Positions 4,845 to 61,037 of a DNA stretch of 61,136 bases are shown here, piece by piece. The notes beneath the pieces were generated by a model that saw nothing but the letters and a program-made list of their open reading frames with translations, searched no databases and had not been told where the DNA came from. The position numbers and the translations under genes were made by a program. Within the stretch, counting starts at the first letter, position 1. Every line of letters starts with the position of its first letter. Source of the stretch: Ignavibacteriota bacterium (GTDB taxonomy: Bacteria > Bacteroidota > Ignavibacteria > UBA10030); the NCBI GenBank assembly GCA_003162695.1, contig PMML01000023.1, forward strand, positions 32,287-93,422. Direction: 5' to 3'.

Positions 4845-7800
4845 ATGATGGGCGCGAAACGCATACACAGGCAGACACGAATGAAGTATTGGTTTGTATT
4901 TTATTTTTTATTTTGCAGCATACTTTTCGCTGCAACCCTTTTTGCCGACGATCAATATCCAATCAAAAAAGTTCTTATCGTTGCCGAAGGAACGTCGGAT
5001 ATTAAAAACATCGCAATGGGCGACGCCCGGCAGCTGGCGGATCTCATGGGTCATTTCTCCACTTCCGTTACATTAAAAGGGGTACACGATTACCGACTCG
5101 GTGAACTCAATAATTACGATTTTATTTTTTATGTCGGATTCAATCTCCACAATGAAGTTCCGGCAAAGTTCCTCGTCGATGTTATGACCGCCAAAAAACG
5201 GGTCATCTGGCTCAACACGGGAATGATCGAATTCTGCCGGCGCTACGATGTCAAGAAACGCTACGGCTTTACCGTTTCTGAAATCGATTCGACATCCATG
5301 TTCAATCAGGTTCGTGCAAACAATCATCTCTTCACCAAAGGCGAGCCGAAACTTCATCTCATCCATATTACAAACCCGGCGGCTGTCAGTGTGTCGGGAA
5401 CGGTGTACTCCACCTCGCGGGGAAAAAGTTCGCCGTACATCGTCACATCCGGCAATCTGACGTATATAGCCGATTCTCCGTTTGCCTTTGCAATTCCGGG
5501 GGATCATTACATCTATTTTGCCGATCTTTTGCATGATATTTTGGGTGAGCAGCATGAAGAGTCGCATTCCGCCATGATCCGCATCGAAGATATATCGGTT
5601 TTTGATAATCCGGATAAACTCCGGGAGATTGCCGATGTTTTTTCCCGCCACGGCATTCCGTTTATGGTCGGCGTTATTCCGTTTTTTGTCGATCCGGGTG
5701 AAGGCATACACCTGAGTCTTTCCGATAAGCCGGATTTAGTCGACGCGTTGCAGTACATGGTGCGCAATGGCGGCACGATTGTGATGCACGGGATCACACA
5801 TCAATATAAAGGAACGACCGCAACAGATTTTGAATTCTGGGACGACAACACCAACAGCACTATTCAGGGAGAAACGGAAGAAGCCGATGCGCATAAGATA
5901 GAATTGGGCATACAGGAATTCATGAAAAACGGCCTCTATCCTCTGGTGTGGGAAACGCCGCACTATACTGCATCGTTCAAGCTGTACAGGACTATTTCGA
6001 AATATTTCAGCACCGCATGTGAACAGCGGCTTTCAATTGAGGATGCAGATTTCAGTCAATTTTTTCCTTACATCATCAAGAAAGACCTCTTTGGACAAAC
6101 GATCTACCCGGAGAATCTCGGTTATGTTCCTCTCAATCCGGATAAAGACGAAAGCCGCAAATCGGTGCAGCAGTTGATTGACAACGCAAAAGCTGAAATG
6201 TACGTAAGGGACGGAGTCTCTACGGCATTCTTCCATTCGTTTCTGGATATTGAACTGCTGGAACAATTGATCGACGGTATACAGAATCTTGGATATACGT
6301 TTATGGATATGCGGGAACAGACCAACTGGGTACGCACAAAAGACCGGATTATACTCTCCGGCAGCCAGCAGTATACGATGAACCTCAAAGATCAATATTT
6401 AATGGAAGCGTACTATGATGAAAACGGCGAACTGAAGCAGCGCATGCTGAGCGAGAAACGCCTACTGGGTCCTGTGACAAAAAAAATAACGCTTGCCCCG
6501 GGAGAATTTTATCGTGCGGAAGCAACGGAATTTCGTGAAAAACCTGAGACATTTTTTCAGAAGATTGCCTCACAGGTTCAGCGCCTTTTTGAAAATTTTA
6601 CGGAAAAAGAGAATTCATGGCAGCCGGTGCGTCCTCTTCTGATGTGGAATTATTTTGCAAGGGGTGCATTCTTTCATGACCAGTCATCGTTTGCTTCCGT
6701 CTTTCAAAGCGTGAATGTGAGGCTCGATACCGCTTTCCTCGGCCAGCCGCTTTCACTGGCAAACTATAATCTTCTCATTATTCCCGCTGCCATAGCGGAT
6801 TCGCTCAATCCGGCAGCAATCGAAGAGGTACGAAAGTTCGTCAAGGACGGCGGCAATTTGATCCTCGATGCAAAGACCGATCTTGCGGGAGAATTCGGCA
6901 TTACCTATGCATCTTCCCGCATGGATGTGCGTCATATTCGTGATGAACTGTTCCCTGAAGAGCCGATTGCCTGGCGCAATGCCGAACTGGTTACTAAATT
7001 CGATGTGGATGATATCGACAAAGTTTTCTGTTACGATGAAGCGACCGACGCCCCGATGGTTATAGGTAAAAAAATAGAGAAAGGAAAAATTCTCTATATC
7101 AATTCCCTCTTCGATCCAATGACCGATCAGGGATATTCCCATTACCCGTTCCTTCTGGAATATATACGGCGATATTTTTCACTGCGCCCGTTTGTGCGGA
7201 GGGAACAGGTGGAAATGTATTTCGATCCGGGACTGCGTCATACGTACAGCGTCGAAAATCTTGTCCGCTCCTGGGTAAATAACGGTATCCGGATTATCCA
7301 TGTGGCAGGATGGCATCAATATCCCACTTATACGTACGATTATGCACGGCTGATCCGCCTTGCTCATGCCAACGGAATTCTCGTGTATGTGTGGCTGGAA
7401 CCGCCGCAGGTGAATCACAAGTTCTGGATAAACCATCCTGAATGGCGCGAGAAAAACATCAAAGGGGACGATGCAAAAGCCTCCTGGCGTTTTCCGATAG
7501 CACTGACCGATACCGGATGCGTTCGAGCTGTTATGCAGGAGTTCCGCTCGATTCTGGAAACATACGATTGGGACGGCGTTAATCTTGCGGAATTGTACTT
7601 TGAAGCCGGCCGCGGATTTGAAGACCCGCTTCTCTTTACTCCTGCACACCCGAGCGCAAAAAACGACCTCAAACGGCGTTACGGTATAACGCTGGCATCC
7701 GTTTTCGATTCGTTATCGCCTTCGTACTGGAAAAGAAATCCGGGTGTGCGCGAAGACATAACGGAGTATCGCGTACAAAGCCTTACAAAAGTGTATGAAT

Positions 7801-8825
7801 CGTTCCTTTCGCTTTTTCAGGAATATGAAATCCGAAAACCGGGTTTTCAGGTCGTTGTTACAGCAATGGACAGTTACAATTCGCCGAACCTGCGGGAGCA
7901 GCTCGGTGTGGACATGCAAAGCGTGCTCGCGCTTCAGCATCGATTCGGATTTATGCTGCAAATCGAAGATCCGCAATCTCTCTGGTCGACGGACCCGCAG
8001 CGCTACGCAAAAATCGGCGCGCAGTATCAGGCGCTCGTTTCCGATCCTGCCAAGCTCATGCTGGACCTCAACATCCTGAGCTTCCGTAATAAGGACGAAG
8101 TGCTTCCTTTCCCGACGCTTATACAGACCGGAACGGAAAGCTATCATCTTATTCATTCGGCTGCAAGCGGGGCAGTACGAACAACAATTTATTCGGAAGC
8201 TACGGTCAATCCGCAGGATCTGGCTTTCTTTTCGAATGCTCTGGCCTCCGCTTCTCGCTACCGATTGAAAGGCAATGAAATCGATTTTTCTTCGCCTTAT
8301 TCAACTACGCTGCGTCTGCCTGCAGCGATTCCGGAAATTTCTCTCGACGGTGCAACCGTCCTGCCATCCCGCGATAACCGGTATTTCATGCCGGCCGGCA
8401 GCCATCAAATCATTTTGCAGGCACAGGAAGCCGGAACGTTTTCTGCGAACAAATTGCAGCCCCGCGTAATGTCCTCGACAGGCAACATTACAACACTGGA
8501 GTACGGTTCGCGCGACATCATGTTTTCGTATGAATGCAGCGAACGGATGCTCATCGCGCTGAGCAATCTCCCGACGGCAATTACCGTAGACGACCTTTTT
8601 TATCCGTGTCACCCCATGCAGGGGAACGATTGTTTCTCTATCTTTCTTCCGCAGGGACGCCATAACGCCGTTATTACGACGGGGGATGCTTTTTCCTACG
8701 GCATCAGCATTACAAGCTTCTGGTCTTCAACGGCGATTGCCCTGTTCGCAGTAACGGCAGTTTCATTACTTGCGTTGATGTACGGTATCTTAAAAATTCT
8801 AAAACGCCGCGCTTCTGCATCTTGA
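4845..8825 (+). CDS. exported DUF2334-type deacetylase-like and glycosidase-like protein
   Basis: Large envelope protein of 1326 aa (numbering from 4845). A signal peptide occupies about residues 13-35; the internal ATG at 4881 (MKYWFVFY) may be the true start. Residues 240-490 resemble DUF2334, a relative of polysaccharide deacetylases, with candidate metal ligands in RIEDIS (Asp249), HGITH (His315, His319) and FFHSFLD (His464). Residues 595-780 look like a glutamine-amidotransferase-like domain of the kind found in glycosidases. Residues 785-1080 look like a TIM-barrel glycoside hydrolase, with acidic candidates in WDGVNLAELYFEAG (Asp910, Glu916, Glu920). A membrane helix near 1290-1318 anchors the C-terminus. 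It precedes a glycosyltransferase by 13 bases, so it probably modifies or trims a surface polysaccharide. The exact activities are inferred. Confidence 0.75.
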   Translation: MMGAKRIHRQTRMKYWFVFYFLFCSILFAATLFADDQYPIKKVLIVAEGTSDIKNIAMGDARQLADLMGHFSTSVTLKGVHDYRLGELNNYDFIFYVGFNLHNEVPAKFLVDVMTAKKRVIWLNTGMIEFCRRYDVKKRYGFTVSEIDSTSMFNQVRANNHLFTKGEPKLHLIHITNPAAVSVSGTVYSTSRGKSSPYIVTSGNLTYIADSPFAFAIPGDHYIYFADLLHDILGEQHEESHSAMIRIEDISVFDNPDKLREIADVFSRHGIPFMVGVIPFFVDPGEGIHLSLSDKPDLVDALQYMVRNGGTIVMHGITHQYKGTTATDFEFWDDNTNSTIQGETEEADAHKIELGIQEFMKNGLYPLVWETPHYTASFKLYRTISKYFSTACEQRLSIEDADFSQFFPYIIKKDLFGQTIYPENLGYVPLNPDKDESRKSVQQLIDNAKAEMYVRDGVSTAFFHSFLDIELLEQLIDGIQNLGYTFMDMREQTNWVRTKDRIILSGSQQYTMNLKDQYLMEAYYDENGELKQRMLSEKRLLGPVTKKITLAPGEFYRAEATEFREKPETFFQKIASQVQRLFENFTEKENSWQPVRPLLMWNYFARGAFFHDQSSFASVFQSVNVRLDTAFLGQPLSLANYNLLIIPAAIADSLNPAAIEEVRKFVKDGGNLILDAKTDLAGEFGITYASSRMDVRHIRDELFPEEPIAWRNAELVTKFDVDDIDKVFCYDEATDAPMVIGKKIEKGKILYINSLFDPMTDQGYSHYPFLLEYIRRYFSLRPFVRREQVEMYFDPGLRHTYSVENLVRSWVNNGIRIIHVAGWHQYPTYTYDYARLIRLAHANGILVYVWLEPPQVNHKFWINHPEWREKNIKGDDAKASWRFPIALTDTGCVRAVMQEFRSILETYDWDGVNLAELYFEAGRGFEDPLLFTPAHPSAKNDLKRRYGITLASVFDSLSPSYWKRNPGVREDITEYRVQSLTKVYESFLSLFQEYEIRKPGFQVVVTAMDSYNSPNLREQLGVDMQSVLALQHRFGFMLQIEDPQSLWSTDPQRYAKIGAQYQALVSDPAKLMLDLNILSFRNKDEVLPFPTLIQTGTESYHLIHSAASGAVRTTIYSEATVNPQDLAFFSNALASASRYRLKGNEIDFSSPYSTTLRLPAAIPEISLDGATVLPSRDNRYFMPAGSHQIILQAQEAGTFSANKLQPRVMSSTGNITTLEYGSRDIMFSYECSERMLIALSNLPTAITVDDLFYPCHPMQGNDCFSIFLPQGRHNAVITTGDAFSYGISITSFWSSTAIALFAVTAVSLLALMYGILKILKRRASAS

Positions 8826-54647: not shown

Positions 54648-55793
54648 ATGGAAACGAACGTGACTTCCATACCTATAGTTTTGATCGGAATCGGCAACGT
54701 CGGGCGCGCCGTATTGCGGCAGATACTCGATGTCCGCAAGCACTATGCCGAACGCACGGGTCTTTATCTTCAGCCGGTCTGCGTCTCCGACAGTACCGGC
54801 GTTATGTACAACCCGGATGGACTTTCGGAAGATGTTCTGCAGTCTATTTTACGCGCTCGCTCGCAAAGCCGGCGCATCGTCACTCTGCCGGGAGCGCAGC
54901 AAAAAGAATCCGTGCAGGAGATGCTGAAGCCCGGAACGATCATCGTGGATGTAACCGCATCGGGCGAAATGCTGAAACTTTTTCGCACGGGACTCGAGCA
55001 CGGATGCAGCATCGTGCTTGCCAACAAGAAACCGGTCGCAGCCCATTGGGAAGATGTCCATTGGCTGTTCGATCATCCGAACGTCCGCTATGAAGCCACG
55101 GTCGGCGCCGGACTGCCGGTGATATCGACATTGCGCCAGCTGCGTGAAACAGGCGACCGCATTACGGCTGTCGAAGGGTGCATGAGCGGGACGCTCGGAT
55201 TTCTGTGCGCTGAGATCGAACGCGGCGTTGCATATTCCACTGCCGTGAGGGAAGCCAAATCCCTCGGATATACGGAACCGGATCCGCGCGACGATCTGAG
55301 CGGTCAGGATGTTGCGCGCAAAGCATTGATTCTTGCACGCACAGCCGGATGGCCGCTGGAACCGGAAGCGATCGAGGTCGAGCCAATGTTCCCGCAGTCC
55401 CTTTCTTCCGTCGATGTGGAAGATTTTATGGAAGCAACGGTTAAATTAGACAGTATGTACGGATCCGAGAATCAGGAAGCGCAGGCAAACGGAAATGTGC
55501 TTCGGTACATTGCGCGCGTCAGTCCCACAGGAGGCAAGGTCGGACTTGTTGCCGTTCCGCGGGAATCCGCGTGGGGCGCACTCCGCGGTTCCGCAAACTT
55601 TATCGCATTTTCAACGATGCGGTACGATGCTATTCCGCTTGTGGTATCGGGACCCGGCGCCGGCGCGGAAGTCACGGCTGCAGGTGTTCTGGGTGATATT
55701 ATGAGTCTCATTAATGCTGAACGAAAGGTAGAACATGAAGCTGGTGGTAATGAAATTCGGCGGAACCTCGGTGGGTTCTATCGAATCAATTGA
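54648..55793 (+). CDS. hom: homoserine dehydrogenase
   Basis: Reduces aspartate semialdehyde to homoserine, the entry to threonine and methionine. The 381-aa protein has the Rossmann loop IGIGNVGRAVL, ANKKPVA, GAGLPVISTLRQL, GCMSGTLGFL and the catalytic region GYTEPDPRDDLSGQDVARKAL. There is no C-terminal ACT domain, so threonine feedback by that route is unlikely. The last 20 codons overlap lysC in another frame by 59 bases. Family members usually end near GVLGDIMSLI, so the tail beyond that is extra and may not matter. Confidence 0.94.
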   Translation: METNVTSIPIVLIGIGNVGRAVLRQILDVRKHYAERTGLYLQPVCVSDSTGVMYNPDGLSEDVLQSILRARSQSRRIVTLPGAQQKESVQEMLKPGTIIVDVTASGEMLKLFRTGLEHGCSIVLANKKPVAAHWEDVHWLFDHPNVRYEATVGAGLPVISTLRQLRETGDRITAVEGCMSGTLGFLCAEIERGVAYSTAVREAKSLGYTEPDPRDDLSGQDVARKALILARTAGWPLEPEAIEVEPMFPQSLSSVDVEDFMEATVKLDSMYGSENQEAQANGNVLRYIARVSPTGGKVGLVAVPRESAWGALRGSANFIAFSTMRYDAIPLVVSGPGAGAEVTAAGVLGDIMSLINAERKVEHEAGGNEIRRNLGGFYRIN

Positions 55794-57141: not shown

Positions 57142-57216
57142 GATATCACTGCGCAACATATTATAGACAGTATTAATAGCATAGAATAAAATTTTCATCC
57201 CCGAGTGACCTCGTCA

Positions 57217-57247
57217 GCCTACTGCGTGACTTTGCCGGCAGTCAGGC
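57217..57247. other. hairpin between lysC and the HAD-like gene
   Basis: GCCT plus ACTGC (57217-57225) pair with GCAGT, a bulged C, and AGGC (57238-57247). A run of seven T begins 27 bases later. It may be a weak terminator or processing site that sets off the threonine genes from the rest. Confidence 0.4.
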
Positions 57248-57296
57248 CGCTAAAATCAAACGGGAATGATAGTCTTTTTTTAACAATACAACTTTT

Positions 57297-58442
57297 ATGA
57301 AACTTTACGGACGAACATCCATTTCCGAATTTCTGGGCGACTTTATCGTCTATCGCAATCTTGTTCCGGTCGATCCGCGCTTGCCGGCGCTTTCGGAAAT
57401 TGCAAAACGCATCGGCATACCGAAAAACGTCATTCCCCGCAAGTACGAGAAAGTCTACGGTCAGGTTATTGTTGAACTTCTTTCGTCCGCACGTACTTTG
57501 ATCGGATCGAATAAGGAAATCAGGCGGCTGATTTATCTCGGCGATACGAAGATGAACGACACGACCGCGTTCTTGAACATATGCGCTGCCGGAAATTTTG
57601 AAGGCATGGCTTTTATCGGAGATGAGAATTCGGCTCCTTCTAAGATCGAAGAAGCAAAGGAAGGCAATTGCATCGTCTGCTCCGCCAACCGGTGGTCGCT
57701 TCTGTCCGAATTCGACCGGCTGTGCCGGTCACGGGGATTTATCGCCGACGAACAAACCGCGGTCATTTCCGATATCGACAAGACCATACTTGGAGCGCGC
57801 GGCCGCAACGATGCAGTTATCGATCGTGTACGCGTCGATGCTGTGGAGCGCATTATCAGCGAAAAAATGACCGGCCGGTTCAACCATCATGCGTTTCAAA
57901 CCGCATACGATATGCTTAAAAAGCCGGAATATCATACTTTTACTGCGGATAATCAGGACTATCTGGTCTATCTCTGCCTGGCCGTGGGAAGCGGAGTAAC
58001 GTCGCTGGATTCCCTTACAGCGAAAATAAAAACGGGTGCGGTAAAAAGTTTTCAGGAATTTATCTTTCAGGTGGAAAAAAATGTTGCAGCCCTGCCGGCG
58101 GATATGCGGGCGATTCATAACGAAGTGTACGAATTCGTCAGGGCAGGAGATCCGACGCCGTTTAAAACTTTCCGTACGAACGAATTCAAATTGACCGTCG
58201 AGCGAATGGGACATGCAGAGGACGATATGCCGGTTCCGGAACTTCTGCAAACCGAAATTCTTCTGACGGAAGAAGTCCGGGATTTTATATTAAACAGGAA
58301 ATTGCAGGGTTCCATTGTGTTCGGACTCTCGGACAAACCGGATGAAGCATCGCTTCCGACCGGCGATCTTGCCGTTCGCGGATTTTTACCGATCCATCAA
58401 ATTATTACGCTTTCAGTAGGACAAGAACTAGGAAAAGAATGA
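57297..58442 (+). CDS. HAD-like protein of unknown function in the threonine operon
   Basis: A 381-aa cytosolic protein I do not recognise as a named family. It carries two haloacid-dehalogenase-like signatures in reverse of the usual order. YLGDTKMNDTTAFL (about 80-92) resembles motif IV with the acidic pair Asp83 and Asp88. SDIDKTILG (about 158-166) resembles motif I with Asp159, Asp161 and Thr163. A further GLSDKPDEA lies near 343-351. This suggests a permuted or two-part HAD fold with phosphatase or phosphotransferase chemistry. The stop overlaps the next gene by four bases (ATGA), so it is translated with the alternative homoserine kinase. A role in homoserine or phosphohomoserine metabolism is plausible from position only. 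Confidence 0.75.
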   Translation: MKLYGRTSISEFLGDFIVYRNLVPVDPRLPALSEIAKRIGIPKNVIPRKYEKVYGQVIVELLSSARTLIGSNKEIRRLIYLGDTKMNDTTAFLNICAAGNFEGMAFIGDENSAPSKIEEAKEGNCIVCSANRWSLLSEFDRLCRSRGFIADEQTAVISDIDKTILGARGRNDAVIDRVRVDAVERIISEKMTGRFNHHAFQTAYDMLKKPEYHTFTADNQDYLVYLCLAVGSGVTSLDSLTAKIKTGAVKSFQEFIFQVEKNVAALPADMRAIHNEVYEFVRAGDPTPFKTFRTNEFKLTVERMGHAEDDMPVPELLQTEILLTEEVRDFILNRKLQGSIVFGLSDKPDEASLPTGDLAVRGFLPIHQIITLSVGQELGKE

Positions 58443-59647
58443 AAAAATACGTCATCGTCGTTCCGGATGGAGCGGCGGATTATCCGATAGCGGAATTAGG
58501 CGGTAAGACAATTTTTGAAGCTGCAGAAACACCGAACTTAGACAGCATCGCAATTGGCGGAATGCTCGGATTGAGCAAAACCGTTCCTGCATCCTTACAG
58601 CCCGGCAGTGATGTCGCCATGATGGCGGTACTCGGTTACGATCCGCACAAATATTATACCGGCAGAGCGCCCATCGAAGCAGCCGCGCAGGGCATCGAGG
58701 TCTCGCCGAGCGATTGGATTTTCCGCTGCAATCTTGTGACCATCCAGAACGAAACCATGGCCGATCACAGTGCGGGACATATCTCCAGCGAAGAAGGAAA
58801 AGTTTTTATCGACGCGCTGAATGCATCATTCGGCAATGAACAAATAACGTTCTATCCCGGAGTCGGATACAGGCATCTGCTTGTGGTCAAGGGACTGGAT
58901 TTCGACGGCACGACGACGCAGCCGCCGCACGACATGATAGGAAAAAGCATTGAAAGCATTCTGCCGAAAGGAAAAAATGCGGAATTTTTGATCGATCTCA
59001 TACGCAAAAGCAGATCGCTGGTCGAAAATCATGAAATCAATAGAGAACGCAAGAAGCTCGGAAAAAATCCTGCCAGCTCCATCTGGCTCTGGGGGCAGGG
59101 ACGGAAAGCGGTTCTGGATTCGTTTGAAAAAAAATACGGACTCAAAGGGGCGGCAATCACGGCGGTCGACTTAGTTAAAGGACTGGCAAAACTGATCGAT
59201 TTCGATTTTATCAAGGTCGAGGGTGCAACCGGATATTTCGACACGAATTACAAAGCAAAAGGAATTGCAGCAATCGAAGCGCTCCGCAAGTATGACGTCG
59301 TTCTGGTTCATGTGGAAGCTACGGACGAAGCGGGGCATGAAGGAAAAGCTGAAGTAAAGAAAAAAGCTCTGGAATCGATCGATGCTCAGATTATCGGTCC
59401 GGTTCTTATGGAATTAAAAAAATATTCCGACTGGCGGATCCTGGTCATGCCGGATCACCCCACGCCCGTTTCCACAAAGGGACATGTCGGCGATCCGATT
59501 CCGTTTGCCATCGGCGGCAGCGATATCGCTCCCGGCGCAAGACTTCCCTTCAGCGAATCCAACGCAGCAAAGACAGGAATTATATTCGATCCAGGATATG
59601 AACTTATGAAAGCGTTCTTAGTTCCCACCAGAGGTGGGCAAGCGTAA
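58439..59647 (+). CDS. proposed alternative homoserine kinase (ApgM-like)
   Basis: A 402-aa member of the alkaline-phosphatase superfamily close to archaeal-type, cofactor-independent phosphoglycerate mutase. Visible features are VVPDGAADYP (first metal site), TVPASLQPGSDVAMMAVLGYDP with the likely active-site serine, VHVEATDEAGHEG and VMPDHPTP (later metal sites). Members of this subgroup found in threonine operons have been proposed as the missing homoserine kinase (a TIGRFAM entry of that type exists, from memory). Here hom and thrC are present while no GHMP-type thrB is visible, which supports that reading. It is coupled to the upstream HAD-like gene. A plain phosphoglycerate mutase role remains possible. 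Confidence 0.8.
   Translation: MKKYVIVVPDGAADYPIAELGGKTIFEAAETPNLDSIAIGGMLGLSKTVPASLQPGSDVAMMAVLGYDPHKYYTGRAPIEAAAQGIEVSPSDWIFRCNLVTIQNETMADHSAGHISSEEGKVFIDALNASFGNEQITFYPGVGYRHLLVVKGLDFDGTTTQPPHDMIGKSIESILPKGKNAEFLIDLIRKSRSLVENHEINRERKKLGKNPASSIWLWGQGRKAVLDSFEKKYGLKGAAITAVDLVKGLAKLIDFDFIKVEGATGYFDTNYKAKGIAAIEALRKYDVVLVHVEATDEAGHEGKAEVKKKALESIDAQIIGPVLMELKKYSDWRILVMPDHPTPVSTKGHVGDPIPFAIGGSDIAPGARLPFSESNAAKTGIIFDPGYELMKAFLVPTRGGQA

Positions 59648-59670: not shown

Positions 59671-61037
<1,367 letters not shown>

Follow-up and report, generated by a model that had tools for sequence, protein, structure and literature searches.

A candidate circularly permuted HAD-type homoserine phosphotransferase of Chloroflexota threonine operons, with a copy beside thrB2 in an Ignavibacteriota bacterium

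The phosphorylation of homoserine is a recognised weak point in the reconstruction of threonine synthesis: among 148 diverse prokaryotes, GapMind gave homoserine kinase low confidence in 29, and just 15 of those 29 have TIGR02535 (PMC7311316), and Price et al. noted that novel homoserine kinases are still to be discovered, Desulfovibrio having one that is shikimate-kinase-like (PMC5764234). The ApgM-like protein described by TIGR02535 is itself a proposed homoserine kinase, and its name here, ThrB2, is taken from PMC9026213. A HAD protein can also do the work, since ThrH uses phosphoserine to phosphorylate homoserine, presumably via a phospho-enzyme, and has no ATP-dependent kinase activity (PMC1079889).

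The gene described here, gene X, is one of the final genes of the window (i.e., the whole stretch of 61,136 nucleotides that was analysed), which form a threonine block, hom-lysC-X-thrB2-thrC, with all genes on the plus strand:

54648..55793, plus strand: hom, homoserine dehydrogenase, assigned by Pfam/NCBIfam; the nearest hom found is that of Chloroflexi locus L020, at 48% identity
55735..57141, plus strand: lysC, aspartate kinase, assigned by Pfam/NCBIfam; 71% identity to relative G001
57142..57296, plus strand: the 155 bp that separate lysC from X; one sigma-70-like site (57164-57192), at chance level
57297..58442, plus strand: gene X, 381 aa, ATG to TGA; permuted HAD-like, candidate homoserine phosphotransferase
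58430..58437, plus strand: Shine-Dalgarno-like AGGAAAAG for thrB2, within X and just 5' of the thrB2 ATG, by direct reading
58439..59647, plus strand: thrB2, 402 aa, ApgM-like proposed homoserine kinase; TIGR02535 524.6 bits, cut-off 446.3
59718..61037, plus strand: thrC, threonine synthase; TIGR00260 206.8 bits, cut-off 167.1

The reading frame of X, its position between lysC (155 bp upstream) and thrC, and the ATGA at 58439-58442, which is the last four bases of X and includes the start of thrB2, are all as described in the initial annotation, as is the placement of GDTKMND (residues 82-88) before SDIDKTI (from residue 158). The gap between lysC and X had no Rfam match, and X itself had zero matches in Pfam, nothing close to any cut-off in NCBIfam, and no match to TIGR02137 (ThrH), TIGR00191 (GHMP ThrB) or TIGR00938 (APH-type ThrB). 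If both listed starts are used, the hom and lysC reading frames overlap by 59 bp (55735-55793), an overlap that a later in-frame lysC ATG (MKFGGTSVG) would reduce. Far upstream, the window also holds a 1326-aa ORF (4845-8825) with a DUF2334 domain at residues 243-478 and no Pfam match over the rest.

As a bare query, the window X retrieved nothing from Pfam, NCBIfam, the PDB, plasmids, viral contigs or a first scan of genome contigs. Homologues emerged from a scan in which patterns were forced onto the motif stretches via a synthetic alignment, the synthetic rows being used solely to choose the patterns. This motif-directed scan produced seven X loci with 33-50% identity, five labelled Chloroflexi/Anaerolineaceae, one from the unassigned bacterium CSMAG_1350 and one from Bacterium BMS3Bbin03 (L026). 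A profile made from the seven was then run against 400 Chloroflexota genomes, of which 29 carry X (a count that leaves out G735, a thirtieth, weak fragment), and against 82 genomes from the phylum to which BMS3Bbin03 belongs, of which 2 do. In all there are 35 homologues, 29-50% identical to the window X, and the family to which they belong is unnamed and mainly found in Chloroflexota. X was detectable in none of 60 relatives of the window genome, and the weak matches in 395 genomes of its own phylum were judged to be chance, the search being a single-sequence query by which distant copies could be missed.

Conservation was counted over 36 sequences (the window X and its 35 homologues), and the sites that bear on the nature of the protein are these:

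57435..57443, plus strand: PRK, residues 47-49, with a motif III-like Lys; R48 and K49 invariant; aligns to the region around the motif III Lys in E. coli HADs
57540..57560, plus strand: GDTKMND, residues 82-88, motif IV-like; G82, D83 and D88 invariant in the 36
57771..57824, plus strand: DIDKTILGARGRNDAVID, residues 159-176, motif I-like plus family signature; D159 presumed nucleophile, D161 presumed acid/base
57948..57959, plus strand: DNQD, residues 218-221, in the helical cap; invariant residues, presumed substrate site, helical in the model
58149..58163, plus strand: DPTPF, residues 285-289, in the cap; almost invariant residues
58329..58340, plus strand: SDKP, residues 345-348, motif II-like; S345 invariant in the 36; aligns to TNKP/motif II of E. 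coli Gph

Two of these, PRK (III-like) and the SDKP site read as LSDKP at 344-348 (II-like), add to those noticed earlier. Residues R48, K49, G82, D83, D88, D159, D161, K162, S345, D346, K347 and P348 are invariant in all 36 sequences and T163 is kept in 35, and given this invariance the motif pattern is judged to exceed chance. Each of the HAD hallmarks is found in X, i.e., DxDx[TV], an S/T after a hydrophobic strand, a K/R and a GDxxxD-type acidic motif, but in the linear order III-IV-I-cap-II as against the standard I-II-III-IV. Because the linear order is III-IV-I-II while the cyclic order is kept, we label X as circularly permuted HAD-like and not as an ordinary HAD; read cyclically, its sequence is that of a putative HAD that has a large C1 cap and has been opened at the junction of motifs II and III. 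The AlphaFold2 model (mean pLDDT 92.3, pTM 0.89) has strands beside motifs I, II and IV and an all-helical stretch of ~160 residues from motif I to motif II, within which fall the conserved clusters D218-D221 and D285-R293.

That X is a permuted HAD, as the initial annotation had ventured, is very probable, and the proposal draws on motif conservation, on the extent of a Pfam match and on two tests of segment order. PF00702 matches one homologue, L026 (E 0.0014, below the gathering score), over residues 152-348, beginning at the motif I strand and ending at model position 126 of 191; such a limitation to the region of motifs I-II is what a permutation predicts, the motif III/IV part having moved to the N-terminal side. 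Re-ordering the X-family sequences did not lengthen the PF00702 match in a Pfam search. In global hhalign comparisons of core segments with eight E. coli HADs (Gph, HxpA, HxpB, YjjG, YieH, YqaB, YrfG and YcjU), the canonical order I-II-III/IV scored 25.5 and placed all four motifs in register, whereas the native order reached 20.3 and none of the remaining four exceeded 20.1. The motif sites of X thus align best to classical HADs when canonically re-ordered, and circular permutation is therefore the best reading, albeit from a modest test. A scan of cut points had its maximum at residue 156, in the motif I strand, and since other cuts (96-124 and 339-355) score nearly equal, the core-segment test is supportive and not proof; full-length-profile hhalign of the X family against the E. 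coli HADs was weak in either order.

In structure comparison, the confident whole model, with its strands beside motifs I, II and IV, had no significant HAD match, Foldseek and VIA-align returning assorted Rossmann folds with no HAD among the matches listed, and both are sequential aligners, which handicap a permuted protein. The fragment 148-381, whose model (mean pLDDT 75.9) is poorer than the whole, repeatedly retrieved HAD chains at low Z (1qyi 4.4, 2go7 3.6, 2hsz 3.5, 3ddh 3.4), and further low-scoring HAD chains for the fragment from residue 148 were 8h5s, 2hi0 and 4uat. Of these chains, 1qyi resembles X in its length (380) and has a long aligned range. Profile searches of the PDB with the X family gave nothing in native or re-ordered form, and in NCBIfam there was a weak HAD-IIIC match in the family. 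An IS1380 transposase match to one family member (NCBIfam, E 1.4e-4) was taken as chance. Among titles and abstracts, no published permuted HAD was found.

The gene neighbourhood of X in Chloroflexota points to threonine synthesis, with asd directly 5' of X in 27 of 29 loci. The order is lysC-asd-X-thrC in L023 and L024 and hom-lysC-asd-X-thrC, without thrB, in L020, where every step from aspartate to threonine is covered except homoserine kinase and X is in that place; X lies away from threonine genes in BMS3Bbin03 and in G846. Being tied to the pathway (asd, lysC, hom, thrC) and in the homoserine kinase slot, X is likelier an alternative to the ApgM-type kinase than its helper. Another Chloroflexota genome, G494, which has neither ThrB nor X, carries a ThrH (HSK-PSP) gene adjoining thrC (contig C43, 41570-43289; L078), which suggests that a HAD enzyme is able to occupy the kinase position.

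An association with loss of GHMP-type thrB, raised in the initial annotation, was borne out: ThrB (presence taken as TIGR00191 at E<=1e-10) was found in 0 of 29 Chloroflexota genomes with X as against 302 of 371 without it. Fisher's test gave 5e-20, uncorrected for relatedness, and 4e-7 for the nine genomes of group A alone; these counts are of genomes, whose completeness is not established, and not of evolutionary events, and because the genomes are related they overstate independence. ThrB2, by TIGR02535 over its cut-off, was present in none of 35 other X genomes tested and in 10 of 25 tested genomes that have neither X nor ThrB, and from these presence patterns it follows that in Chloroflexota the three (X, ThrB and ThrB2) stand in for each other. 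Of the 35 X genomes, 34 have a detectable thrC, which is over cut-off in 32. Ten X genomes with thrC (G439-443, G445, G581, G806, G812 and G827) have no candidate among the four families searched, ThrB, ThrB2, APH-type and ThrH. Counting against X as a homoserine phosphotransferase, G629 has X and ThrH together, the one X genome in which ThrH was found. Separately, the Chloroflexota genomes G479, G488, G515, G523, G547, G555 and G595 have thrC over cut-off, no X, ThrB or ThrB2, and at most a weak APH match, and in them the homoserine kinase gap appears to be still open (ThrH was examined in G479 and G488).

The window genome has X and ThrB2 both, with no ThrB over cut-off, and its X probably has a different history from its neighbours. 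In relative G001 lysC, thrB2 and thrC follow in unbroken succession, and the window genes are 71% (lysC), 63-71% (thrB2) and 82-89% (thrC) identical to those of relatives, while the window X is 50% identical to that of Chloroflexi L020 and nests in a mostly Chloroflexota clade (95/92), its exact place in the tree being unsure because of long branches. Since lysC, thrB2 and thrC are of the host's own family whereas X groups with mostly Chloroflexota sequences and was not found in the 60 relatives, X was most likely acquired; its sequence relationships point to horizontal transfer from a Chloroflexota-like source and insertion between inherited lysC and thrB2. The GC content of X (0.488, with 0.50-0.51 in the next genes) is barely distinct, and thus the acquisition was not very recent or X has been ameliorated. 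Because ThrB2 is present too, X is dispensable as sole enzyme in this genome. The window hom is also nearer to that of L020 (48%) than to its counterpart in thrB2-bearing relatives, where hom is fused to lysC (35-39%, full length), and by this likeness it may have been transferred in the way that X was. In the relative G028 (L013, reverse strand), two small unrelated ORFs separate the hom part from thrB2, so that insertion 5' of thrB2 has happened repeatedly.

As X occurs in Chloroflexota threonine operons, and solely in genomes without the usual homoserine kinase, it may be the missing enzyme. The reading we favour, with reservations, is that the X family are circularly permuted HAD phosphotransferases supplying O-phosphohomoserine to threonine synthase, and that the window X is an acquired copy that coexists with ThrB2. 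What the computation establishes is the gene with its motifs, its distribution and its neighbours; we infer substrate, donor and activity from gene neighbourhood, phyletic pattern and the ThrH precedent, and most likely O-phosphohomoserine would be made through phospho-Asp159. In this scheme a donor would phosphorylate Asp159 of motif I, giving a phospho-aspartate, with Asp161 as the acid/base and the phosphate held by Ser345 (II), Lys49 (III) and, with Mg2+, Asp83/Asp88 (IV). Homoserine would bind to the helical cap, the ~160 residues that separate motif I from motif II and include the conserved DNQD and DPTPF, so that the homoserine hydroxyl, instead of water, would attack the phospho-aspartate. 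By analogy to ThrH the candidate donor is phosphoserine; otherwise PEP, acetyl phosphate or ATP might serve.

Other readings of X differ in how much of this they dispute. Most radically, X might be a non-HAD protein of another Rossmann-like fold whose motif likeness is coincidental, as the whole-model searches by Foldseek and VIA-align and the empty PDB profile searches in both orders would allow; we think this improbable in view of motif sites invariant in 36 sequences, a segment-order test that favours the canonical HAD order, the weak PF00702 and HAD-IIIC matches, and the HAD chains, each at low Z, listed for the fragment from motif I to the C-terminus. Less probable still is that X serves ThrB2 as an accessory, or as a subunit that donates phosphoryl groups, and is translationally coupled to it. 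The ATGA overlap and internal Shine-Dalgarno-like site speak for such a coupling, and BT2402, a TIGR02535 protein, alone failed to complement E. coli thrB (GapMind, PMC7311316). Among 36 X genomes, however, the two occur together in the window genome only, and seven close relatives carry ThrB2 without X. The regular partnership with an ApgM-type kinase suggested in the initial annotation therefore did not hold, TIGR02535 being absent from 35 of 35 other X genomes tested and X from the seven relatives with an ApgM-type gene, and it was dropped.

The remaining alternatives accept a HAD and assign homoserine to another enzyme. HAD enzymes are in their majority phosphatases, and the tight linkage of X is with asd, so that X could be a phosphatase of the aspartate/threonine branch that trims or regulates flux, its substrate being O-phosphohomoserine, aspartyl phosphate or phosphoserine, while homoserine is phosphorylated by something else. 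ThrH, too, has phosphatase activity (PMC1079889). A phosphatase would leave unexplained both the exclusion of ThrB and ThrB2 and the ten thrC-bearing genomes in which none of the four families searched offers an alternative to X, and we regard this role as unlikely. Somewhat more weight, although the case is still doubtful, attaches to a divergent APH-type protein as the homoserine kinase of ~20 larger, probably Chloroflexus-like genomes, in which X would have another role and the link of X to ThrB loss would arise partly from shared ancestry. These genomes form a single branch of the X tree (100/100), and most of them, nearly the whole clade, carry such a protein (~335 aa; G457, G497, G506, G531, G539, G563, G579 and G643 are among the carriers), whose best match in the two genomes scanned is homoserine kinase. 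The match, at 119-123 bits, is far under the curated cut-off of 271, and APH-type ThrB (TIGR00938) exceeded that cut-off in 0 of 52 genomes tested; the APH loci that were read (L074-L077) have no recognisable threonine genes adjoining; and in the other group, eleven genomes with X lack any APH match at E<=1e-5 and still lack ThrB.

A homoserine phosphotransferase thus remains our preferred reading, and X is a concrete candidate for the recognised homoserine kinase gap. By a narrow balance of the evidence, it would be an undescribed, permuted HAD-type enzyme and a further independent solution that closes the gap for part of Chloroflexota. That the family is still unnamed would be explained by its permuted motifs escaping sequential sequence and fold searches. 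With ThrH of Pseudomonas aeruginosa (TIGR02137) it has in common the HAD motif residues and the proposed product, O-phosphohomoserine, but X differs in its III-IV-I-II order, its 381 aa as against ~200, its large helical cap and its want of a TIGR02137 match. The C1-cap HAD phosphatases and mutases of E. coli (Gph, HxpA, HxpB, YjjG, YieH, YqaB, YrfG and YcjU) share the motifs of X in register once these are re-ordered, whereas in native order there is no significant match of sequence or fold. GHMP ThrB (TIGR00191) would carry out the same proposed reaction, is unrelated in sequence, and within the 400-genome sample never occurs with X in one Chloroflexota genome. ThrB2 (TIGR02535), like X, is a proposed ThrB replacement with a threonine-operon context and is exclusive with ThrB (PMC9026213); unlike X, it belongs to the metalloenzyme/phosphoglycerate mutase family, is unrelated in sequence, and outside the window genome is exclusive with X.
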